A DNA stretch of 64,000 bases, from positions 3,658,001 through 3,722,000 of the forward strand of contig NZ_CP058579.1 in the NCBI RefSeq assembly GCF_013402875.1, read 5' to 3'. The position numbers were made by a program, and so were the translations under genes. Below are positions 17,819-62,312 of this stretch, piece by piece (within the stretch, counting starts at the first letter, position 1; each line of letters begins with the position of its first letter). Origin of the DNA: Halorarum salinum (lineage in GTDB: Archaea > Halobacteriota > Halobacteria > Halobacteriales > Haloferacaceae). The notes under the pieces are model-generated. The model worked only from the letters and a program-made list of their open reading frames with translations, ran no database searches and was not told the DNA's origin.

Positions 17819-19285
17819 CTACTCCCCGTCGAGCGCCCGCCAGGAGAGCCGCGGGTTCCGGGCGGCGCCCGCCTGGTCGATGCGACGGGCAGTGGTCTTC
17901 GAGGGGGCCGACGCCAGTTCCCCGTCGGCGTCCGCGGCCGCGGCGTTGAACGCCGCCGCCAGGTCCTCCAGCGAGGACTTGCTCTCGGCCTCCGTCGGCT
18001 CGGTGAGCATCGCCTCGGGCACCATCTCGGGCCACTTCGTCGTCGGCGGGTGGACGCCGTAATCGAGCATCCGCTTTGCCACGTCGGCGGCGTCGCGGTC
18101 GCCGGCGGTCGCGGCGAACTCGTGGTGGAACGGGCCGTACGGCACGTCGAACTCGACGAGTTCCGCGAGGTAGTTCGCGTTGAGCACCGCCTTCGCGGAG
18201 GCGTCGAGCAGTCCCTCGTGGCCGAGGCGGTGGATGTACGCGTACGCCTTCACGAGCACGAGCCAGTTCCCCTGGAAGCCGTGGACCTTCCCCACGGAGC
18301 GCTCGGGGTCGAACAGTTCGTACTCGACCTCGTCGCCCCCGTCGCCGGCGTCCCCGTCGGCCGCGGTCGGCGCCTCGCGGACCTGCGGTCGCGGGAGGAA
18401 CTCGGCCAACTCCTCGACGACCCCGACCGGGCCCGCGCCCGGACCGCCGCCGCCGTGGGGGGTCGCGAACGTCTTGTGGACGTTGTAGTGCATGACGTCG
18501 AACCCCATGTCCCCGGGGCGGGCCCGGCCCAGCAGCGCGTTGAGGTTCGCGCCGTCGTAGTAGAGCAGGCCGCCCGCGTCGTGGACGATCCCGGCGATCT
18601 CCTCGATGTCGCGCTCGAACAGCCCCACCGTGTTCGGGTTCGTGAGCATGAGCGCCGCGGTGTCCTCGGAGACGGCGGCCGCCAGCGCCTCGACGTCGAC
18701 CCGGCCGTCCTCGTCCGAGGGGAGTTCGACCACGTCGTAGCCCGCCATCGCGGCGGTCGCGAAGTTCGTCCCGTGTGCGGAGGCGGGGACGACGACCTCG
18801 TTCCGGTCGTTCCCGTTCGCGTCGTGGTACGCCTTCGCGACCGTGATGCCGGCGAACTCGCCGGCCGCGCCCGCCGGCGGCTGGAGCGTCACGGCGTCCA
18901 TCCCGCCGACCTCCGCGAGGTACTCCTGCAGGCCGTGGAGCAGTTCCAGGGTGCCCTGGACCGTCGAGGGGTCGCGGTCGGGGTGGACCGCCGCGTTCGG
19001 GTCGGCCGCGACGACCTCCGTGAACGTCGGGTTGTACTTCATCGTACACGAGCCCAGCGGGTAGGGCCCGGACTCGACGCTCCAGTTCATCTGGGAGAGC
19101 CGGGTGTAGTGGCGGGCCAGCTCCGGCTCCGAGAGCTCCGGCAGTTCTAGCGAGTCCCGCGTCAGCCCGTCGGGGAGGATCGAGCCCTCGCCCGGGTCGA
19201 CCTCCTTCCCGTCCTTCTCGGAGAGCAGCGGCTCGTAGCGCTCGTCGTCGCCGTAGCGGGCCTGATCGTGGTTCACGCGAGGCAC
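17819..19285 (-). CDS. gcvPB: glycine dehydrogenase (decarboxylating) subunit 2
   Basis: 488 residues. P-protein large half: decarboxylates glycine with PLP and passes aminomethyl to the lipoyl arm of GcvH. The PLP lysine is Lys271 in HYNVHKTFATPHGGGGPGAG; DGANLNA and LGSCTMKYNP are also family hallmarks. Works as a heterotetramer with GcvPA, encoded 46 bases upstream on the same strand. Confidence 0.96.
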   Translation of the reverse strand: MPRVNHDQARYGDDERYEPLLSEKDGKEVDPGEGSILPDGLTRDSLELPELSEPELARHYTRLSQMNWSVESGPYPLGSCTMKYNPTFTEVVAADPNAAVHPDRDPSTVQGTLELLHGLQEYLAEVGGMDAVTLQPPAGAAGEFAGITVAKAYHDANGNDRNEVVVPASAHGTNFATAAMAGYDVVELPSDEDGRVDVEALAAAVSEDTAALMLTNPNTVGLFERDIEEIAGIVHDAGGLLYYDGANLNALLGRARPGDMGFDVMHYNVHKTFATPHGGGGPGAGPVGVVEELAEFLPRPQVREAPTAADGDAGDGGDEVEYELFDPERSVGKVHGFQGNWLVLVKAYAYIHRLGHEGLLDASAKAVLNANYLAELVEFDVPYGPFHHEFAATAGDRDAADVAKRMLDYGVHPPTTKWPEMVPEAMLTEPTEAESKSSLEDLAAAFNAAAADADGELASAPSKTTARRIDQAGAARNPRLSWRALDGE

Positions 19286-19331
19286 CCCCGTGCCGAGCGT
19301 GAAGTAGACCGGACCGGCGTCCGGGCGTGAT

Positions 19332-20666
19332 TCATCGGCCCGTCACCTCCGCGAACGCCGCGACCAGCCCGTCGGCCTCCCCGGCGTTCAGGTCGGTGAC
19401 ACAGACCTGCAGCGTGTCGTCGTCGAGGACGTGGACCGCGTAGCCGGCCTCCCGGAGGCCCTCGGCGACGGCGGGCGCCCCGTCGACGCCGACCGCGAAC
19501 TCGCGGACGTGGTGGCGGTCGTGCAGCGGCGCGGTCACGCCCTCGATCCCGTCCAGGTCGGCGGCGAGGTCGCGGGCGTTCCGGACGCAGTCCTCCGCGA
19601 GGTCCGCGAGCCCGGACGCCCCGAGCATCGCGAGGTGCATCGCGGTCCGGAGCGCGACCCACGCCTGGTTCGTGCAGATGTTCGAGGTCGCCCGCTGCTT
19701 GCGGATGTGCTGCTCTCTGGTCTGGAGCGTCAGGGTGTACGCGCGCATCCCGGCGGCGTCCTCGCTCGCGCCGACGAGCCGACCGGGCACCTGCCGGAGG
19801 AACTTCTCGCGGCAGGCGAACAGCCCGAGCCCCATCCCGTAGGCCGTCGGGAGGCCGAGCGCGCCCGCCTCGCCGACGACCACGTCCGCCCCGACCGACG
19901 CCGGTTCCCGGAGCAGACCGAGCGCGACGACGTCGCTGCCGACGCAGAACAGCGCGTCGTGGTCGTCCACGAGGTCCCCGACCGCGTCGAGGCCCTCCTC
20001 GATGGCGCCCGTGACCGTCGGGTTCTCCGCGTAGACGAAACAGACGTCCCCGTCGAGGCGCTCCGCGAGCGCGTCGAGGTCGACGTTCCCGTCGTCGTAC
20101 GGGTACGTCTCCACCGAGAGCGGCGAGCCGTCGACGTAGTTGTCGAGCGTCGAGCGCTTCCCGTCCCGGAGCGCCTCCGGCACGAGCACGACGTCGCCCG
20201 AGGTCGAGCGCACGCGCTCGGAGAGCAAAGCAGCCTCGGCGAGCGCGGTCGCCGCGTCGTACATCGAGCAGTTGGCGACCGGGAGCCCCGTCAGCTCCAC
20301 CAGCATCGACTGGTACTCGAACAGCGCCTGCAGGAACCCCTGGGTGATCTCCGGCTGGTACTGGGTGTAGCTCGTGAGGAACTCCGAGCGCGAGGAGAGG
20401 TCGTCGACGAGCGCCGGCACGTAGTGGCCGTAGTGGCCGCGCCCGAGGAACTCGACGAGGTCGTCGTTGCGGGCGAACGTCCGCCGGAGGTCGGCGACGA
20501 CGTCCCGCTCGCTCCGAGCGGGGACGTCGAACTCCCCGTCGAAGGCGACCGACTCGGGGATGTCGAACAGGTCGGCCTCCGAGTCGGCGCCGACGGCCTC
20601 CAGCATCTCCGCGGTCGTCCCGGGCGTGTGCGGGGCGAAGGGGGTGCCCGTCGTCCGTCCGCTCAT
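19332..20666 (-). CDS. gcvPA: glycine dehydrogenase (decarboxylating) subunit 1
   Basis: 444 residues. N-terminal half of the split P-protein: [15 protein letters not shown], the GHYGHYVPA stretch, [27 protein letters not shown]. Partner of GcvPB. First gene of a two-gene operon. In many haloarchaea gcvT-gcvH-gcvPA-gcvPB are contiguous; here gcvH and gcvT are 5-7 kb away. Confidence 0.96.
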
Positions 20667-20862
20667 CGCCGCCGGCCACCTCCGATTCCACGTCCGTGCC
20701 GTCCGGGGACCGCCTCGCGTCCACGTCTGTCCATGGGTTTGCCTACGACCGGGCGGTCAAGAGTCGTTCGTTCCCGGACGGAGGTACCGGGGGAGCCACA
20801 CGGAACGAGGGGACGAGCGCGGGGACGGACGGGACCGCGCCCGGCGCCATTTTTCTATATAT

Positions 20863-20883
20863 ACTATTGAGTAACGCAATAGT
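20863..20883. promoter_or_regulatory. perfect inverted repeat, operator candidate
   Basis: ACTATTG, seven bases, CAATAGT (20863-20869 and 20877-20883), beside tatatata at 20856. It lies just upstream of the TATA-like box of the metallophosphoesterase gene and in the 5' region shared with gcvPA. Confidence 0.5.
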
Positions 20884-20895
20884 TTTGCCGTTACG

Positions 20896-20902
20896 CTTAT
20901 CA
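20896..20902 (+). promoter_or_regulatory. TATA-like box for the 20927 gene
   Basis: cttatca lies 25-31 bases before the ATG at 20927, consistent with leaderless transcription of the metallophosphoesterase gene. Confidence 0.5.
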
Positions 20903-20926
20903 CTCGATCGCGGCAAGTTCGCGCGA

Positions 20927-21973
20927 ATGCACGTTCAGGAACTCGCCGACCGTCGACTGTTTTCGAGCGAGCGGTCCGCTCACGACCTCGCCTACGAGAC
21001 CCTCACGGGGGACGAGCGGTGCGTCGCCCGCTTCGATCGACCGCGGAGCGCGGTTCCCCGGCGGCTCGCCGTCGTCTCCGACCCCCACGTCGCCGGAGAC
21101 GAGCGCGGGACGTGGAAGCTGTTCCACCGAACCCGCGAACGGTTCCGGGCGACGCTCGCCGACGTCGAGGCGCTCGGGGTCGACGCCCTCGTCGTCCCCG
21201 GCGACCTCACGAAGGACGGGGAGGCCGAGAACCTCGACTGGACGGAGGCGGCGCTCGACGACGTCGACGTTCCGGTCCTCGCAGTTCCCGGCAACCACGA
21301 CGTGAAGGGGTTCCCCGTCTCGGCGTTCGAGGAACGGTTCACCGAGGACGGGTTCCCGGTCCGCCTGCGCCTCGACGGCCTCGACGTCGTCGGCCTGAAC
21401 AGTGCGATGTGCCCGGACGAGGGAGATGACCCCGAACTGGACGTCGTCTCCGAGGACCAGTTGGAGTGGCTCGAGGCGACGCTGCCGGACGCGACCGATC
21501 CGATCGTCGTGACCCACCACAACCTGCCGGGGCTCGAAGCACACGTCGGCGGCGACGGCTGGGCCCCCCACCCGCCGGTCGGGAACGCCGACGCCCTGGC
21601 GGAGGTCCTCTCGGCCCACGACGTCCCCCTCCACCTCTCGGGGCACGTCCACCTCCTGTCGCTCACCCGACCCCGGGGCGTCCGCGGCCTGATCGCGCCG
21701 TCGCTCGCCTCGTTTCCCCAGTCGTACCTCCTCCTGGACGTCGACGCGACCGGCACGACGGTACGGTGTCGGACCGCCGCGACCAGGGCGGACGTCGAGG
21801 AGTCCTACGAGGAGGGACTGGCCCACTCCCCGCGCAGCACCGTCATCTCCGAACTCAACGCCGAACAGCTCCGGCGCCTGCCGCTCGTCGACGAGCGCAC
21901 GGACCCCACGCCGGAGATCGACCCGATCCGGACGGACGGACCGGACGCTGGCCCCGACGGCGGGGCGTCCTGA
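20927..21973 (+). CDS. calcineurin-like metallophosphoesterase
   Basis: 348 residues. All five motifs of the dinuclear phosphoesterases are present: D52-x-H54 in VVSDPHVAG, GDLTKDGE, GNHD in LAVPGNHDVKG, VTHHN and the closing SGHVHL. It hydrolyses phosphomono- or diesters; the substrate is unknown. The start at 20927 is favoured by the promoter just upstream; in-frame sequence before it is not protein-like. Confidence 0.9.
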   Translation: MHVQELADRRLFSSERSAHDLAYETLTGDERCVARFDRPRSAVPRRLAVVSDPHVAGDERGTWKLFHRTRERFRATLADVEALGVDALVVPGDLTKDGEAENLDWTEAALDDVDVPVLAVPGNHDVKGFPVSAFEERFTEDGFPVRLRLDGLDVVGLNSAMCPDEGDDPELDVVSEDQLEWLEATLPDATDPIVVTHHNLPGLEAHVGGDGWAPHPPVGNADALAEVLSAHDVPLHLSGHVHLLSLTRPRGVRGLIAPSLASFPQSYLLLDVDATGTTVRCRTAATRADVEESYEEGLAHSPRSTVISELNAEQLRRLPLVDERTDPTPEIDPIRTDGPDAGPDGGAS

Positions 21974-22049
21974 CGGGGGCTGTCGTCCCCAGTTGGACCG
22001 CGGCCCGTCGGTGCACTCGGGGCCGAACGGCCGCCACGCGTCGGTACCG

Positions 22050-23090
22050 CTACGGGACGATGACGGCCCGCCCCTCGATCTCGCCGTGTTCGAGCCGCTC
22101 CGCGACCTCGTTCACCTCGTCGAGCCCGTACCGCGTCGTCCGCAGTTCGACCGCCCCCCGCTCGACGAGCGCGACGAGTTCCTGGAGTTCGGCGTACCGC
22201 CCGACGAGCGTCCCGCGGTACGCGATCTCGCCGTCGACGAGCGACTGGGCCGGCTCGTGGACGTGCCCGCCGTAGCCGACGACGTGGTGTGAGCCGCCCT
22301 GGGCGAGGACGTCGGGCGCGAGCGCCGTCGTCTCGTCGGCGCCGACGAAGTCGAGCACCTGGTGGGCGCCGACGCCGTCCGTGAAGTCGTCGACGACCGC
22401 GGCCACGTCCTCGGCGGTCGGGTCGACCGTGAGGTCCGCGCCGAGTTCCGCGGCCAGATCGCGCGCTTCCGGTTTCACGTCGAGCGCGACGACGTCCGCG
22501 GCGCTCATCGCGTCGAGACACTGGAGGCCGATGTGGCCGAGCCCGCCGATCCCCACGACGACCGCGGCGTCGCCGGGGTTGAGTTCGCGGGTCGCCTTCT
22601 TGACGGCGTGGTAGGCGGTGATTCCCGCGTCCGCGTGGGGCGCGACGTCCGTCGTATCGACGCCGTCCGGGAGGGGGACGACCGCGCGCTCGTTCGTCAG
22701 GAGGAACTCGGCGAAGCCGCCGTCGGTGGTGAGGCCCGGGAACTGGACGTTCTCGCAGTACATGTCCTCGCCCTGCCGACACGGGCGGCACGTCCCGCAC
22801 GTCATCACCGGGTGGCAGACGACCGGGTCGCCGACCTCGACGGTCGTCACCGACTCGCCGACCTCCGCCACCCTCCCCGCGTTCTCGTGGCCGAGCGTCA
22901 TCGGGAGCTCCTGGGGGACGTACTCGGTCCACATCCCCTCGATGACGTGGTTGTCCGTCTGGCACCACCCCGCCCCCTCGATCTCGACGACGACCCCGCC
23001 GGGCTCGGTCGGCGTCGGCCGGTCGACCTCGTCGATGCTGAGGGCCTCGCTCATGTCGTCGGTGTAGGCGTGGAGTCTCGCGGCCTGCAT
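22050..23090 (-). CDS. zinc-dependent alcohol dehydrogenase
   Basis: 346 residues of the medium-chain family. Catalytic-zinc ligands lie in AGWCQTDNHV and LGHENAG; the structural zinc has four cysteines in CGTCRPCRQGEDMYC. The NAD-binding motif is VVVGIGGLGHIGLQ. It faces the amidohydrolase-DUF59 pair across a short promoter. An alcohol dehydrogenase accompanies the same pair in propane monooxygenase clusters, where it oxidises 2-propanol to acetone; that role here is inference. Confidence 0.9.
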   Translation of the reverse strand: MQAARLHAYTDDMSEALSIDEVDRPTPTEPGGVVVEIEGAGWCQTDNHVIEGMWTEYVPQELPMTLGHENAGRVAEVGESVTTVEVGDPVVCHPVMTCGTCRPCRQGEDMYCENVQFPGLTTDGGFAEFLLTNERAVVPLPDGVDTTDVAPHADAGITAYHAVKKATRELNPGDAAVVVGIGGLGHIGLQCLDAMSAADVVALDVKPEARDLAAELGADLTVDPTAEDVAAVVDDFTDGVGAHQVLDFVGADETTALAPDVLAQGGSHHVVGYGGHVHEPAQSLVDGEIAYRGTLVGRYAELQELVALVERGAVELRTTRYGLDEVNEVAERLEHGEIEGRAVIVP

Positions 23091-23185
23091 GTCAACTAGT
23101 GACACACGAGGGACCAAAGTCGTTGTCACGGCTCGCTGTCAGTTCCCGGGCGCGGGCGCCCCGGGCGGGGACCCCCCGACGAAAG

Positions 23186-23208
23186 TATCATGATAATTGG
23201 GAACAATT
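23186..23208. promoter_or_regulatory. two adjacent palindromes between divergent genes
   Basis: tatcatgata (23186-23195) is a perfect 10-base palindrome. AATTG-ggaa-CAATT (23195-23208) is an inverted repeat ending 11 bases before the amidohydrolase ATG. A regulator bound here could control both the alcohol dehydrogenase and the amidohydrolase-DUF59 operon. Confidence 0.5.
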
Positions 23209-23218
23209 AGCGAACGGG

Positions 23219-24265
23219 ATGTACGAGCACGAAGGGGAGGACGTCTTCGTCGTCGACTCCCACATCCACCTGTGGGACGCGAGCGAGGAGAACGTGAAGT
23301 CGGACGGCGGTGAACAGTTCATCCAGTGCTTCTACGACTACCACACGGGATTCACGCCGGAGGGGGAACAGTGGTCCCTCGAGGAGTACCGGAAGTACGG
23401 ACCCGAGCGGATGGCGAGGGACCTCTTCGGGAACGCCGCGGTGGACATGGGCATCTTCCAGCCGACGTACCTGAACGACTTCTATCACACCGGGTTCAAC
23501 ACCGTCGACGACAACGCCGAACTGGCCGAGCAGTATCCGGAGCGCTTCCTGCTCAACGGCCGGTTCGACCCGCGCGACGGCGAGCCGGGGCTCCGCGAGC
23601 TCGAGCGCCAGAAGGAGGAGTACGACGTCCAGGGCGTGAAACTGTACACCGCCGAGTGGCGCGGGGACTCGAAGGGATGGCGGCTCGACTCCGAGGAGGC
23701 GTTCGAGTTCCTCGACAAGTGTGCGGAACTCGGCATCGAGAACATCCACCCGCACAAGGGGCCGACGATCCGCCCGCTGAACCGCGACGCCTTCGACGTC
23801 GGCGACGTCGACGACGCCGCCACCTCGTTCCCGGAACTGAACTTCGTCGTCGAGCACGTCGGGCTCCCGCGGCTGGACGACTTCTGCTGGATCGCCGCCC
23901 AGGAGCCGAACGTCTACGGCGGCCTCGCGGTCGCTGCGCCGCTGGCGGTCCACCGCCCGCGGAAGTTCGGCGAGATCATGGGCGAGCTCCTCTTCTGGCT
24001 CGGGGAGGACCGCCTGCTGTTCGGCTCGGACTACGCCCTGTGGAACCCCGACTGGCTCGTCGAGACCGTGATGAACGCCGAGCTCACCGAGGAGCAGCGC
24101 GACGAGTACGGCGTCGAGTTCGACCTCGAGACGAAGCGGAAGATCATGGGCGAGAACGCCGCCGAACTCTACGACATCGACATCGAGGAGAGGAAACGCC
24201 GGTTCGAGGACGACGCGGCGAGCCGCGAGTTCGGGATCGGCGACGGCTACGCCGCCGCCGACTGA
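23219..24265 (+). CDS. amidohydrolase-family protein of propane-monooxygenase-cluster type
   Basis: 348 residues, TIM-barrel metal hydrolase of the amidohydrolase_2 group: metal motif VVDSHIHLWD, then NIHPHKGPT, VVEHVGLPR and the final FGSDYALWNPDW. The phrases IFQPTYLNDFY, VKLYTAEWRGDSKGW and QEPNVYGGLAV are, as I recall, distinctive of the amidohydrolase encoded in actinobacterial prm/mim propane monooxygenase clusters. Its own reaction is unknown. Its TGA overlaps the next ATG (TGATG at 24263-24267). Confidence 0.85.
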   Translation: MYEHEGEDVFVVDSHIHLWDASEENVKSDGGEQFIQCFYDYHTGFTPEGEQWSLEEYRKYGPERMARDLFGNAAVDMGIFQPTYLNDFYHTGFNTVDDNAELAEQYPERFLLNGRFDPRDGEPGLRELERQKEEYDVQGVKLYTAEWRGDSKGWRLDSEEAFEFLDKCAELGIENIHPHKGPTIRPLNRDAFDVGDVDDAATSFPELNFVVEHVGLPRLDDFCWIAAQEPNVYGGLAVAAPLAVHRPRKFGEIMGELLFWLGEDRLLFGSDYALWNPDWLVETVMNAELTEEQRDEYGVEFDLETKRKIMGENAAELYDIDIEERKRRFEDDAASREFGIGDGYAAAD

Positions 24266-25095
24266 TGGGCGCCGACGCACGGCCCGCCGTCACCAGCGAG
24301 CGGGCGCGACGACGGCTCCGGCGGGTCACGGACCCGGAGCTCGACGAGTCGATCGTCGACCTCGGCTACCTCGACGAGGTCGCCGTCGACGGCGGCCGCG
24401 TGGCGGTGTCGTTCACGCTGCCGACCGCGTGGTGTTCGCCCGCGTTCGCCTGGATGATGGCGACGGACGTCCGGGACGAACTGGACGCGCTACGGGACGT
24501 CCGTGACGTCCGGGTGAACCTCCGCGATCACGTGCACGCCGACGAGATAACGACGGGCGTGAACGACCGCCGCTCGTTCGCCGAGACGTTTCCCGACGCC
24601 GAGGACGGCGTCTCGGCGGTCCGGGCGAAGCTGGACGACAAGGCACGGCTCGCCCGCCAGCACGAGGCGGTCGGGGCGCTCCTCGAAGCCGGCCTGTCGC
24701 GGGAGCAGATCGTGTCGCTCACCCCGGCCGACCTCGACGGGGTCGGCCGCCCCGCCGCGGACGTGGCCGGGGCGCCGGACCGGTCGCCCGATGGGGACCG
24801 TGAGTCGCCGGACGACGACTTGGCGTGCCTGGCGCTCCGCGACGGAGCGGTTCACGTCGCCGTCGAGGCGGGGCCGCTCGTTCGGTACCTCGAGAAGGCG
24901 CGGGAGACCGGGTTCCTCGCGGACGTGGACGACCCCCTGTTCGGGACGCCGGACGGGGAGGCGCTCACCGCCGAGCGGTTCGACGACGTCCGTGCCCGTA
25001 CCAGGCTGGCGTCGGTGAACATGAGCGGGCAAGGCGGGGTCTGTGACGCGCTCAACGAAGCACGTCGGTCGAAACTCGGCCGGAAGGAGCGGTGA
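24265..25095 (+). CDS. DUF59 / MIP18-type metal-sulfur cluster assembly protein with long C-terminal extension
   Basis: 276 residues. The first 110 are a DUF59 domain (VTDPELDESIVDLGYLDEV, LPTAWCSPAFAWMMATDVRD, with the conserved Cys). Then come a helical stretch (ARQHEAVGALLEAGLSREQI) and a C-terminal region ending SVNMSGQGGVCDALNEARR. DUF59 proteins help insert or repair Fe-S or di-iron centres. Coupled to the amidohydrolase by TGATG, the same pairing as in prm clusters. Confidence 0.85.
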   Translation: MGADARPAVTSERARRRLRRVTDPELDESIVDLGYLDEVAVDGGRVAVSFTLPTAWCSPAFAWMMATDVRDELDALRDVRDVRVNLRDHVHADEITTGVNDRRSFAETFPDAEDGVSAVRAKLDDKARLARQHEAVGALLEAGLSREQIVSLTPADLDGVGRPAADVAGAPDRSPDGDRESPDDDLACLALRDGAVHVAVEAGPLVRYLEKARETGFLADVDDPLFGTPDGEALTAERFDDVRARTRLASVNMSGQGGVCDALNEARRSKLGRKER

Positions 25096-25153
25096 ACGCG
25101 GGCGGGGACGCGCTCCGCGAGGGACCGACTGCCCTACCGCTCCTCCACCCGCC

Positions 25154-25309
25154 CTACGTCTCCTCGATCATCCCCCGCGCGTCGTCGTCGCTCACGTCCA
25201 TGTCGTGTTTCTCCTGCGCGTGCCGCTTGACGATGGAGACGACCTCGCTTTCGTCCTCGGACTGTACCATGAAGCCGTCGTCCTGCCCGCAGTTTACCTT
25301 GTACGCCAT
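25154..25309 (-). CDS. DUF1059 small protein
   Basis: 51 residues, too short to stand out among open frames: MAYKVNCGQDDGFMVQSEDE, then VVSIVKRHAQEKHDMDVSDD and GMIEET. The Cys after YKVNCG and the HAQEKH helix are the DUF1059 signature. Function unknown; common in haloarchaea, often in several copies. A TATA-like tatagctat lies about 50 bases upstream. Confidence 0.88.
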   Translation of the reverse strand: MAYKVNCGQDDGFMVQSEDESEVVSIVKRHAQEKHDMDVSDDDARGMIEET

Positions 25310-25556
25310 CGTGGTGCACCCACCGCCACGTTCGTCCGAGCCCGCAATAGCTATACGGAGGGTACTCGCGGGAAAGACGGCCGTTCGTTCACCGCGGTGA
25401 CGCGAACGGGACTCGCCGGGGGAACGACGCCGGAAACCGCGGGAGGCCCGGACGTAAGCGGTCCCTGTGCCGGCCGAACGGCGGCCTACCTCGACCCGGC
25501 GAACCGTACGGACCGGCGCGTCCGGCCGGGCGCGGCCGCGAGCCGGCCGTATCTGG

Positions 25557-25937
25557 TCACTCGATCTGGTCGCGGTAGTCGTCGGGGGAGAGCAGGTCCT
25601 CCAGTTCCGACTCGTCGGACGGGTCGACCTCCAGCATCCACCCGTCGCCGAACGGGTCCTCGTTGACCAGTTCCGGCTCGTCGAACAGCGCCTCGTTGAC
25701 GGCGACGACCTCCCCGGAGACGGGGGCGTACAGGTCCGAGACGGCCTTGATCGACTCGACCACGCCGAACTCCTCGCCCGCGGCGAGTTCCTCGCCCTCG
25801 TCGGGCAGTTCGACGAACACCACGTCGCCGAGTTCGTCCTGGGCGAAGTCGGTGATGCCGACGCGGTGGGGCGGTTCGGTCGAGACCCACTCGTGGGACT
25901 CGCGGTACCGGTTTCCGTCGGGCACGTCGAAGCTCAT
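25557..25937 (-). CDS. gcvH: glycine cleavage system H protein
   Basis: 126 residues. The lipoylated lysine is Lys64 in [28 protein letters not shown] and [15 protein letters not shown] are also conserved. It carries the aminomethyl arm from GcvPA/B to GcvT. It lies between DUF1059 and a divergent cupin, not next to its partners. Confidence 0.96.
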
Positions 25938-26096
25938 CGTGTCTCGGGTCGAGGTTCACGGGAGTCGGCCAAAAAGCCCCACCTTCCCGGAGCGGGGTCG
26001 ACGGCCCGCAGCGCCGGTTCGGCGGTCGGTCTGACCACACGGCCGGCCGTTCGGACCGGCGGAGCGCTTTTGGACGACCCGTACGATGGTTGTCAC

Positions 26097-26414
26097 GTGA
26101 GCTACTCGAAGGAGAACTACGGCGACGTCGAACCGCAGGCGCCCGGCATGCACTTCCTCCGGGACGCGCTGGACTGCGAACGCCTCGGGCTCACCGTCGT
26201 CGAGGGCGACGGGGAGTGGAGCGGGATGGAACACGACCACGCGGAGGAGGACCACGAGGAGGTGTATCTCCTGATGGAGGGCTCGGGGACCCTCACCGTC
26301 GACGGCGAGGACGTCGACCTCGACCCGGGCGACGCGGTCCGCGTCGCGCCCTCGTCGACCCGGACGTACGAGTTCGACGAGCGGAGCCGGATGGTCGTCG
26401 TCGGCGCCCCCTGA
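26097..26414 (+). CDS. small cupin protein
   Basis: 105 residues from a GTG (the nearby ATG at 26086 leads to a stop). Cupin motif 1 is HDHAEEDHEEVYLLMEGSG, motif 2 PGDAVRVAPSSTRTYEF; the third His is missing from motif 2. It opens with VSYSKENYGDVEPQAPGMHF. Binding function unknown. It splits gcvH from gcvT and is transcribed the opposite way. Confidence 0.85.
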   Translation: MSYSKENYGDVEPQAPGMHFLRDALDCERLGLTVVEGDGEWSGMEHDHAEEDHEEVYLLMEGSGTLTVDGEDVDLDPGDAVRVAPSSTRTYEFDERSRMVVVGAP

Positions 26415-26467
26415 GAGTCCGGGGACCTCGGCGGGGCCAGCGGTAGGAAGAACTATCGCCGCCGCGG

Positions 26468-27562
26468 TCACTCGAACGGCGTATCGACGACGGTCGCCCG
26501 CTTCTCCTCGCCCCTGACGACGACGTGCACCGGCGCTCCCGGGTCGGCGAGGTCGGTCGGGACGTAGCCGAGCGCGACCGCCTTGCCGAGCGTGGGGCTC
26601 ATCGTGCCGCTGGTGACCCGGCCGACGACGTCGCCCTCCTCGTCGGTGACGTCGTAGCCGTGGCGGGCGACCCCCCGCTCCCGCAGTTCGATGCCGACGA
26701 ACGACTCCTCGATCCCGCCCCCCTTCTGCTCGCCCAGCGCGTCGCGGCCGACGAACTCCGTGTCGAGGTCGACGACGAACCCGATGCCTGCCTCGTAGGG
26801 GGTGTGCGGTTCCTCCCCGGGGTGGAAGTCCTGCCCGGAGAGGAGGAACCCCTGCTCGATGCGGAGCGTGTCGCGGGCGCCGAGCCCGCAGGGCTGGCAC
26901 TCCGCCGCGAACGCCGACCAGACCGCCTCCGCGTCGCCCCACGGGCAGACCAGTTCGAAGCCGTCCTCGCCGGTGTAGCCGGTCCGGGCCACCCAGCACT
27001 CGACGCCCGCGACGCGGGCAAACGTCGCCGTGAACTTCGAGAGGTCGAGGACGTCCGCGTCGGCCTCGTCCGCGACCAGGTCCGGCGCGTCGGGGCCCTG
27101 GACCGCGAGCATCGCCCAGTCCTCCGTGACGTTCCGCACCTCGGCGTCGAGGTCGGCGTCGTCGCGGTGGGTGACCCACCGGTCGTACGCCTCCTCGTCG
27201 TGCCCAGCGTTCGGGACGAACAGGTACGCGTCTTCCCCGCCCTCATCGGGCAATCGGTAGACGACCGTGTCGTCCAGCATGACGCCGTCCTCGCGGCAGA
27301 TGGCCGAGTACTGCGCGTCGCCCGGTTCCAGCGCGGTGACGTCGTTGGTGGTGAGCCGCCCCATCAGCGCCGTGGCGTCCGGCCCGACGACCTCGATCTC
27401 GCCCATGTGGGAGACGTCGAAGACGCCGGCCGCCTCGCGCACGGCCTCGTGCTCCACCCTGATGGAGTCGAACTCCACCGGCATGTCCCAGCCGCCGAAC
27501 TCGGTGAACGACGCGCCGCGTTCGGCGTGGACGTCGCGCAGCGGCGGCTTCCGTAAGGTCAT
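26468..27562 (-). CDS. gcvT: glycine cleavage system T protein (aminomethyltransferase)
   Basis: 364 residues. Tetrahydrofolate-dependent release of NH3 and transfer of CH2 from the H-protein arm. Family blocks: SFTEFGGWDMPVEFDSIRVE, GVFDVSHMGEIEV, RTGYTGEDGFELVCP and GARDTLRIEQGFLLSGQD. I start at MTLRKPPLRD (27562), eight codons into the frame. Same strand as gcvH and gcvPA/PB. Confidence 0.96.
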   Translation of the reverse strand: MTLRKPPLRDVHAERGASFTEFGGWDMPVEFDSIRVEHEAVREAAGVFDVSHMGEIEVVGPDATALMGRLTTNDVTALEPGDAQYSAICREDGVMLDDTVVYRLPDEGGEDAYLFVPNAGHDEEAYDRWVTHRDDADLDAEVRNVTEDWAMLAVQGPDAPDLVADEADADVLDLSKFTATFARVAGVECWVARTGYTGEDGFELVCPWGDAEAVWSAFAAECQPCGLGARDTLRIEQGFLLSGQDFHPGEEPHTPYEAGIGFVVDLDTEFVGRDALGEQKGGGIEESFVGIELRERGVARHGYDVTDEEGDVVGRVTSGTMSPTLGKAVALGYVPTDLADPGAPVHVVVRGEEKRATVVDTPFE

Positions 27563-27639
27563 GGTCGAACCGTCGACAGGCGGCAAGTAATGTCTTTTTA
27601 CTCGCTCCGACGCCGGCGCTGCCGTCGGCGCGGCGCGGG

Positions 27640-60626: not shown

Positions 60627-62312
60627 TTACGACGAGTGCCCGAGCGTCCACGGGTAGCCTTCGGTGCTCTGGAGGGCCCCTGGGCCCCCGTGGTCGTGGT
60701 CGTGGCCGCCCTCGTCGGCGTCGGGGGCGGCGGCGACGACGTCGTCGACGCGGAGGATCGTTCTCGCGGCCTCCTCGGCCCCCGCGAGCGCCCGTTGCTT
60801 GACGAGGAACGGTTCGAGGACGCCGCCCGAGGCCATCTCCCCGACCTCCCCCTCGACGGCGTCTATCCCCGCGCCGGACTCGCCCAGGTGGTGACGTCGA
60901 TGTAGTTCCACGAGCGCGTCGATCGGGTCCAGCCCGGCGCTCTCGGCGAGCGTCCGCGGGACGCTCTCGAGCGCGTCGGCGAACGCCTCGATCGCGAGCT
61001 GTTCGCGCCCCTCGACGGAGTCGGCGTGCTCGCGCAGCACGCGGGCGAGTTCGACCTCGGTCGCGCCGCCGCCGGCGAGGAGGCGTCGCTCCTCGACGGC
61101 CAGCGCGACCACGTCGATACAGCTCTCCACGACGCGTTTCGTCTCCTCGACGACGTGCTCCGAGCCGCCCCGGAGGACGAGCGAGTACTGCCTCGAGCGG
61201 GGGCACTCGCTCACGACGGTCAGGTCGGCCCCGGCGACCGTCCGCCGTTCGACGAGGCCCGCGCGGCCGACGTCTGCCTCGACGAGTTCGCCGGTCGACA
61301 TGACGAGCGCTCCGCCGGTCGAGCGGGCCAGTTTGTGCATCTCGTCCTGGCGGGTCCGCTCCAACGCGAGGACGCCCTCGCGCGCGAGGAGGCTACGCAG
61401 CCCGTCGTCGATCGACTTCTGGCAGAACACCACGTCGGCACCGACCCGCGACAGGTGCTCGACCGCATCGGCGTAGACCGCGTCCTCGTGTTCGAGCAAC
61501 GCCCGTCGTCCCTCCGGTGACTCGAACGTGAGGTGGGAGACGGCGTCGGACGTCTCGACGGTCATCTCGTCGTCGACGAACGCGATCCGGGCGTCCTCGA
61601 TGCGCGTCGGGAGGCGGGCGTCGAACGTCTCGAGCGACGTCGACGAGCGCTCCATGTCGATGACGACGCCCTCGACGAACTCCGAGTCCCCCGGCGACCC
61701 GCCGATCACCGTCTGGAGGACGACGTTGTCGTGAACGGCGGCCCCGTCGTCGGCGACGGCGAGCACGGCATCGACGGCGAGCCCCGAAAGGGCGTCGGCG
61801 GTGCGCTCGTCCCACTTGCCCGTGACCGCCGTCCGACCGACGTCCACGAGTCGGGTGCGGTCGTCGACGTCCACCTCGACGACGAGGTCCGTCATCGCCT
61901 CGGTCGCCCTCGACGCGGCATCCCGGTAGCCGTCGATGATGCTGGTCTGATGTACGCCCCGGTCGAGGAGTACCTCGGCCCTCCCGAGGAGTTCCCCCGT
62001 CAACATCGCGGTGGTGGTCGTTCCGTCGTTCACCCGGTCCTTCTGCTCGGTCGCGACGTCGACGATCAACCGGGCGACCGGATGGTCGATGTCCATTTTC
62101 TCCAGGATCCGAGCCCCGTCGTTGGTGACGATCACCGTTCCCGACGCGCCCACGAGCATCTTGTCCATTCCTCTGGGACCCAGCGTCGTCCGGATTACCT
62201 CGGCGAGCGCCTTCCCCGCCGCGATGTTCGTCCCCAGAGCGTCACGCCCTTCCGTTCGGTGACCGTCATCGCTCGAGATCCGATGAAACCATCCTTGCTC
62301 GGTTCGGGACAT
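60627..62312 (-). CDS. divergent thermosome (group II chaperonin) subunit
   Basis: 561 residues. Chaperonin motifs: RTTLGPRGMDKMLVG, VTNDGARILEKMDIDHPVAR, and NDGTTTT (residues 95-101), where the usual Gly before the catalytic Asp96 is Asn. AGGGATEVELAR replaces AGGGAPEVELA. The C-terminal tail is His-rich (EGGHDHDHGGPG) instead of the usual GGM repeats. ATPase Asp is kept, so it may still fold proteins, but with different partners from the main Cct subunits. Confidence 0.88.
   Translation of the reverse strand: MSRTEQGWFHRISSDDGHRTEGRDALGTNIAAGKALAEVIRTTLGPRGMDKMLVGASGTVIVTNDGARILEKMDIDHPVARLIVDVATEQKDRVNDGTTTTAMLTGELLGRAEVLLDRGVHQTSIIDGYRDAASRATEAMTDLVVEVDVDDRTRLVDVGRTAVTGKWDERTADALSGLAVDAVLAVADDGAAVHDNVVLQTVIGGSPGDSEFVEGVVIDMERSSTSLETFDARLPTRIEDARIAFVDDEMTVETSDAVSHLTFESPEGRRALLEHEDAVYADAVEHLSRVGADVVFCQKSIDDGLRSLLAREGVLALERTRQDEMHKLARSTGGALVMSTGELVEADVGRAGLVERRTVAGADLTVVSECPRSRQYSLVLRGGSEHVVEETKRVVESCIDVVALAVEERRLLAGGGATEVELARVLREHADSVEGREQLAIEAFADALESVPRTLAESAGLDPIDALVELHRRHHLGESGAGIDAVEGEVGEMASGGVLEPFLVKQRALAGAEEAARTILRVDDVVAAAPDADEGGHDHDHGGPGALQSTEGYPWTLGHSS

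Follow-up and report, generated by a model that had tools for sequence, protein, structure and literature searches.

What do an amidohydrolase (AMI) and a DUF59 protein do together when no monooxygenase accompanies them? In bacteria, the two genes belong to a conserved accessory set described downstream of prmABCD (PMC4428276), and the reports on propane/acetone-monooxygenase operons list them without a function (PMC4428276, PMC7176365). The same pair, together with a zinc-dependent alcohol dehydrogenase (ADH), occurs in Halorarum salinum, in a 64-kb stretch of DNA hereafter called the window. A sequence-only reading had connected this trio with prm/mim clusters and described it as an accessory module lacking its monooxygenase. 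That reading left three options: the trio works alone, serves a distant monooxygenase, or has been taken over for another metal enzyme.

Organization of the trio locus in H. salinum

The features of the locus are listed in Table 1. As the sequence-only reading had stated, AMI and the long-form DUF59 gene are coupled by TGATG, and the pair faces a divergent zinc ADH gene. An inverted repeat (TAATTGGGAACAATTA) is present in the ADH/AMI intergenic region at ~23194-23209. It was not conserved at the other loci compared, so the idea of a shared operator in this region was rejected.

Table 1. Positions of the trio genes and associated features in the window
Feature	Position	Strand	Description
ADH, zinc-dependent medium-chain alcohol dehydrogenase	22050..23090	-	346 aa; MDR; ADH_N + ADH_zinc_N
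ADH/AMI intergenic region, divergent	23091..23218	.	would hold promoters of both units
AMI, amidohydrolase	23219..24265	+	348 aa; PF04909 at 7e-50
TGATG stop/start overlap AMI/DUF59	24263..24267	+	TGA 24263-24265, ATG 24265-24267
Long-form DUF59 (FeS_assembly_P) protein	24265..25095	+	276 aa; PF01883 at 3e-15, residues 14-85
Stretch missing in both sister species	21930..25555	.	trio + small DUF1059 gene; flanks phosphoesterase gene, gcvH

The absence of a hydroxylase, reductase and coupling protein noted by the same reading was borne out across the window, which is also free of a MimG-like GroEL gene of the prm/mim type; tblastn with the bacterial components against the window revealed no reductase, MmoB-type coupling protein or MimG near the trio. 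The sole chaperonin of the window (60675-62261) is distant and group-II-like.

The glycine cleavage genes gcvPB, gcvPA, gcvH and gcvT (17819-27586) are interrupted by a phosphoesterase gene; relative to two sister species, the trio is an additional interruption. Both sequenced sister species keep gcvT-gcvH-phosphoesterase-gcvPA-gcvPB but, at the same phosphoesterase-gcvH junction, lack the 3.6-kb trio block and retain only ~120 and ~250 bp in its place. The trio is thus gained or lost as a block, in which no transposase or integrase was noticed. A functional link between the trio and glycine cleavage was rejected, because the sister species, which lack the trio, still carry the gcv cluster. 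The stretch that they are without also contains the small DUF1059 gene (25154-25309, minus strand). This gene was rejected as a fourth member of the trio, since it is absent from every other locus compared.

Relationship to bacterial prm/mim operons

AMI is homologous to the amidohydrolase of prm/mim clusters, being 53-58% identical to copies inside propane/acetone-monooxygenase operons; in the best bacterial plasmid-borne proteins, this identity extends over 92-95% of AMI length. The operons of Paracoccus and Caballeronia contain, in order, hydroxylase alpha, reductase, hydroxylase beta, MmoB-type protein, AMI, DUF59 and GroEL genes, with an ADH of the trio kind nearby. The H. salinum ADH belongs to the same subfamily as the ADHs in bacterial trios, with which it shares 46-50% identity; the figure for other ADHs around the loci is 31-35%. 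Its nearest solved structures are Aeropyrum pernix ADH (1h2b, 2e-100) and the Rhodococcus ruber secondary ADH-A. The trio is a real conserved module with a known address, the prm/mim operons; on this point the sequence-only reading held.

IclR-type regulators lie beside the AMI copies of Thermomicrobium, Thermogemmatispora, Nitriliruptoraceae and some haloarchaea, which suggests an inducible catabolic unit. As a fourth trio gene, the IclR-type gene was rejected because it adjoins only 7 haloarchaeal loci.

Conservation of the trio in haloarchaea

A close AMI was found in 123 of 391 haloarchaeal genomes, about one third of the sample. Long DUF59 was present in 122 of these 123 genomes and never without AMI; in the sole exception, AMI is at a contig end. 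The DUF59 gene adjoins AMI in 58/58 haloarchaeal loci and in 79/80 bacterial loci. When the DUF59 start closest to the AMI stop was taken, the two genes overlapped by 1 nt in 36 of 57 haloarchaeal loci, and the gap was ≤10 bp in all 57. These findings indicate that AMI-DUF59 pairing is obligate. No AMI-DUF59 fusion was seen; for two of the AMIs that lie in long open frames, the coordinates showed that the two genes are not joined.

ADH lies no more than ~1.4 kb away in 52 of 58 haloarchaeal loci (divergent and upstream in 47), and the remaining 6 have no ADH nearby. The AMI-DUF59-ADH arrangement is not due to chance. Across haloarchaeal families, no further gene family is a constant neighbour of the trio, and extra neighbours are common only to close relatives. 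The idea that the trio had been taken over for another metal enzyme consequently gained no support.

The AMIs of haloarchaea group in a single clade (support 100). The hydroxylase-linked label requires 4-5 changes on the AMI tree, on which the stand-alone AMIs of Chloroflexota, Bacillota and haloarchaea fall outside the mainly proteobacterial/actinobacterial groups with linked copies. The tree is unrooted; the branch of a Natrinema paralog was too long for an outgroup. This paralog, on a Natrinema salinisoli plasmid (locus L041, 5989-7457), is a distant one (34%) with several metal ligands gone (HxH to VxH, Asp to Gly). It is directly followed by a short DUF59 gene, among genes of acyl-CoA metabolism.

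Independence from di-iron monooxygenase

A genome-wide search for the di-iron hydroxylase family PF02332 gave zero matches in H. salinum; as a control, the same search detected the family in four related genomes and in bacteria that carry a monooxygenase. PF02332 was present in 4 of the 391 haloarchaeal genomes, all four without a close AMI. The comparison of 0/123 AMI genomes with 4/268 others is an absence of association, not a significant exclusion. The trio is therefore independent of the hydroxylase in haloarchaea. Service to a distant monooxygenase is not supported by these results, and working alone is the best of the three options. The part of the sequence-only reading that connects the trio with the prm/mim set stands; the missing monooxygenase that it implied does not, for haloarchaea.

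The four haloarchaeal genomes with PF02332 contain a toluene-4-monooxygenase-like cluster (alpha subunit with YHS domain, beta subunit, TmoB, Rieske); an XylR_N/V4R protein is encoded close by, and AMI is absent.

In bacteria, a hydroxylase was found in the neighbourhood of AMI in 57 of 82 loci and not in the other 25, in a sample biased to relatives of the Thermomicrobium query. Among 23 searchable bacterial genomes with a hydroxylase-free AMI neighbourhood, several of them incomplete metagenome-assembled genomes, PF02332 was absent genome-wide in 15, including members of Chloroflexota, Bacillota and Poribacteria, and was located elsewhere in the genome in 8, mostly Pseudomonadota. The PF02332-free AMI genomes include those of the isolates Thermogemmatispora carboxidivorans and Jeotgalibacillus soli.

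Other candidate clients are encoded in the H. salinum genome. Two PaaA/PaaC-like clusters (C1:2641428-2643807 and C1:3996974-3999242) each carry their own PaaD-like DUF59 gene, and service of the trio to PaaA/PaaC was rejected for this reason. Two amidohydrolases of the type of the amidohydrolase-related dinuclear oxygenases (AROs) are encoded far from the window (C1:1086961-1088007 and C1:3984401-3985189). Both have D-x-H, H, E and D-x-x-H ligands and are followed by a small Rieske gene, and are candidate dinuclear monooxygenases. Service of the trio to AROs was likewise rejected: among 42 related genomes, ARO relatives occurred in 7/22 trio-free and 0/20 trio-bearing genomes. The H. salinum genome, which has both, is an exception to this lack of association.

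Fold and metal site of AMI

AMI has an Amidohydro_2 domain, and its AlphaFold model (pLDDT 88) is an ACMSD-like TIM barrel that matches ACMSD-like decarboxylases and hydrolases in fold. The best PDB match was 3irs (Z 26.8); dihydroxybenzoate decarboxylases matched at Z ~22, and SfbO (8sm6) and DitZ (8uyr) were also among the structural matches. The predicted metal site consists of H15-x-H17, K141, H179, H213 and D271. We take H15, H17, H179, D271 and H213 to correspond to the site residues of ACMSD, H213 being the catalytic one. In 141 sequences of all classes, H15, K141, H179, H213 and D271 were invariant and H17 was kept in 139; the metal site is not strictly invariant, as two Bacillota copies have Ala at H17. 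In the alignment, haloarchaeal, stand-alone and monooxygenase-linked copies have identical metal-site residues. Judged from its sequence, AMI has retained the metal site found in redox-neutral enzymes of the ACMSD type.

The two copies with Ala at the second His of HxH are those of Peribacillus and Jeotgalibacillus. In both, a DJ-1/PfpI gene follows AMI-DUF59, where ADH would stand.

The SfbO and DitZ matches hinted that AMI might be an ARO-type monooxygenase. In AROs, the two metals are held by AibH2 Asp25, His27, His211, Glu265, Asp337 and His340 (PMC10401708). When AMI was aligned with the two ARO-type proteins of H. salinum, every AMI sampled had His15 in place of Asp, His213 in place of Glu and Leu/Ile274 at the position of the last His. 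Because three of the six ligands are replaced, an ARO-type assignment was rejected, and AMI should carry out redox-neutral chemistry.

The DUF59 partner

The DUF59 protein has an N-terminal SufT/CIAO2B-type FeS_assembly_P domain (14-85) with the conserved Cys57, and a family-specific C-terminal extension with Cys260. Both cysteines were invariant in 39 aligned sequences. The structural model (pLDDT 89) matches SufT-type proteins and CIAO2B in the N-terminal domain only. The protein scored 35.4 bits against a PaaD NCBIfam cut-off of 180.

A 206-aa open frame (G014:C3:2410955-2411497) matches residues 78-273 of the DUF59 protein only. It represents the C-terminal extension as a separate unit and apparently lacks the DUF59 domain.

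Proposed role of the trio and alternatives

Our preferred reading, to which we give a probability of about 0.5, is that the trio is a self-contained three-gene unit in which DUF59 is the obligate partner and likely metal-loader of AMI, and ADH acts on a related compound. AMI, a metalloenzyme of the amidohydrolase fold whose site is of the ACMSD type (HxH, H179, D271, catalytic H213), would most likely act on a small organic compound in a redox-neutral step: hydrolysis, hydration or decarboxylation. The obligate pairing is best explained, we infer, by a need of AMI for DUF59, most plausibly for metal. DUF59 most likely delivers or maintains the AMI metal, probably iron, via Cys57 and Cys260. 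ADH, expressed from the same intergenic region, would oxidise or reduce the matching alcohol or carbonyl compound. Because the trio works without a monooxygenase in haloarchaea, its true job must be something else; bacterial propane/acetone-monooxygenase operons would carry it to process a product that this chemistry yields. The 57 hydroxylase-linked bacterial loci are a point against the self-contained reading. Together with the abundance of the amidohydrolase alongside acetone monooxygenase in acetone-grown cells (PMC7176365), they mean that the trio may have a monooxygenase-related role in bacteria. The eight bacterial genomes with a hydroxylase elsewhere, the six haloarchaeal loci with no ADH close by and the Ala at H17 in two Bacillota copies also count against this reading.

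A more specific proposal, which we make tentatively, is that AMI and DUF59 are a new kind of two-component metalloenzyme. AMI would depend for its metal on a dedicated DUF59 with two invariant cysteines and perform an undescribed step in the metabolism of small alcohols or ketones in haloarchaea, Chloroflexota, Bacillota and propane/acetone oxidisers.

AMI and DUF59 could instead jointly mature or repair dinuclear iron enzymes, acting on PrmABCD/MimABCD in bacteria and on some other, unlinked iron enzyme in haloarchaea. DUF59 domains act in iron and Fe-S handling, and the fold match to CIAO2B and the usual location of the bacterial pair in hydroxylase operons, chaperonin gene included, are consistent with such a role, as is PaaD, a DUF59 protein that adjoins the di-iron PaaA/PaaC in the H. 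salinum genome. However, these PaaA/PaaC have DUF59 genes of their own, the pair is found without PF02332 in 15 bacterial and 123 haloarchaeal genomes, ARO relatives are distributed as described above, and the trio is not linked to any other iron enzyme. AMI also keeps a full catalytic site, which would be superfluous for a pure assembly factor. In the source cited in PMC7570240, the accessory protein required for active MimABCD is MimG; so, as far as that citation goes, AMI and DUF59 are not known as needed. We consider a maturation role unlikely.

That AMI is itself an oxygenase like AibH2, PtmU3 and SfbO, loaded with iron by DUF59, is very improbable given the replaced ligands. AROs are in the same family, PF04909 (PMC10811679), two of the structural matches point to them, and an iron enzyme could well have a DUF59 partner of its own; but a Rieske gene adjoins ~90% of AROs (PMC10401708) and none is conserved beside the trio. 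We assign the lowest probability of all to the idea that the trio is left over from a monooxygenase operon that was lost, and is decaying or has only residual function. Complete prm/mim operons do have the same gene set, but decay would be expected of a relict, and the single, well-supported haloarchaeal clade with its kept metal-site residues, the tight gene coupling and the obligate pairing count against it, as do stand-alone copies in several phyla. On the unrooted tree, stand-alone copies occur in several phyla and make up the entire haloarchaeal clade, which casts doubt on describing the trio as a monooxygenase module deprived of its monooxygenase.

Haloarchaea, with the trio but no monooxygenase in about one third of the sample, allow its role to be studied free of monooxygenase. 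Accounts that make AMI and DUF59 mere monooxygenase helpers must explain these copies. DUF59 has mostly been studied as an Fe-S or di-iron assembly factor, and having an amidohydrolase as obligate partner would broaden the role of the domain.

Comparison with known systems

AMI shares the TIM barrel (Z 19-27) and the HxH/His/His/Asp metal site with ACMSD-like amidohydrolases of PF04909 (ACMSD, 2,3-/2,6-dihydroxybenzoate decarboxylases, LigW, LigJ, BB4693/3irs). It differs from the solved members in being only 13-20% identical and from the group in having an obligate DUF59 partner. With AROs (AibH2, PtmU3, SfbO) it shares Pfam family and fold, but not three of the six metal ligands or the Rieske partner.

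The accessory genes of prmABCD/mimABCD, a group 5 soluble di-iron monooxygenase, encode a metal-dependent hydrolase, a "metal-sulfur cluster biosynthetic enzyme", an alcohol dehydrogenase and the GroEL-like MimG. The haloarchaeal trio resembles this set in having AMI beside DUF59, in its metal-site residues and in protein identity (DUF59, 32-37%; AMI and ADH as given above). In contrast to prm/mim clusters, it has no hydroxylase, reductase, coupling protein or MimG and sits in genomes without PF02332, and its ADH is divergent rather than co-directional.

The trio DUF59 shares the DUF59 domain, the signature Cys (Cys57) and the matching fold with PaaD, SufT and CIAO2B. It is far under the NCBIfam cut-offs for both PaaD and SufT, and differs from all three in being extended by ~190 C-terminal residues that contain the invariant Cys260.
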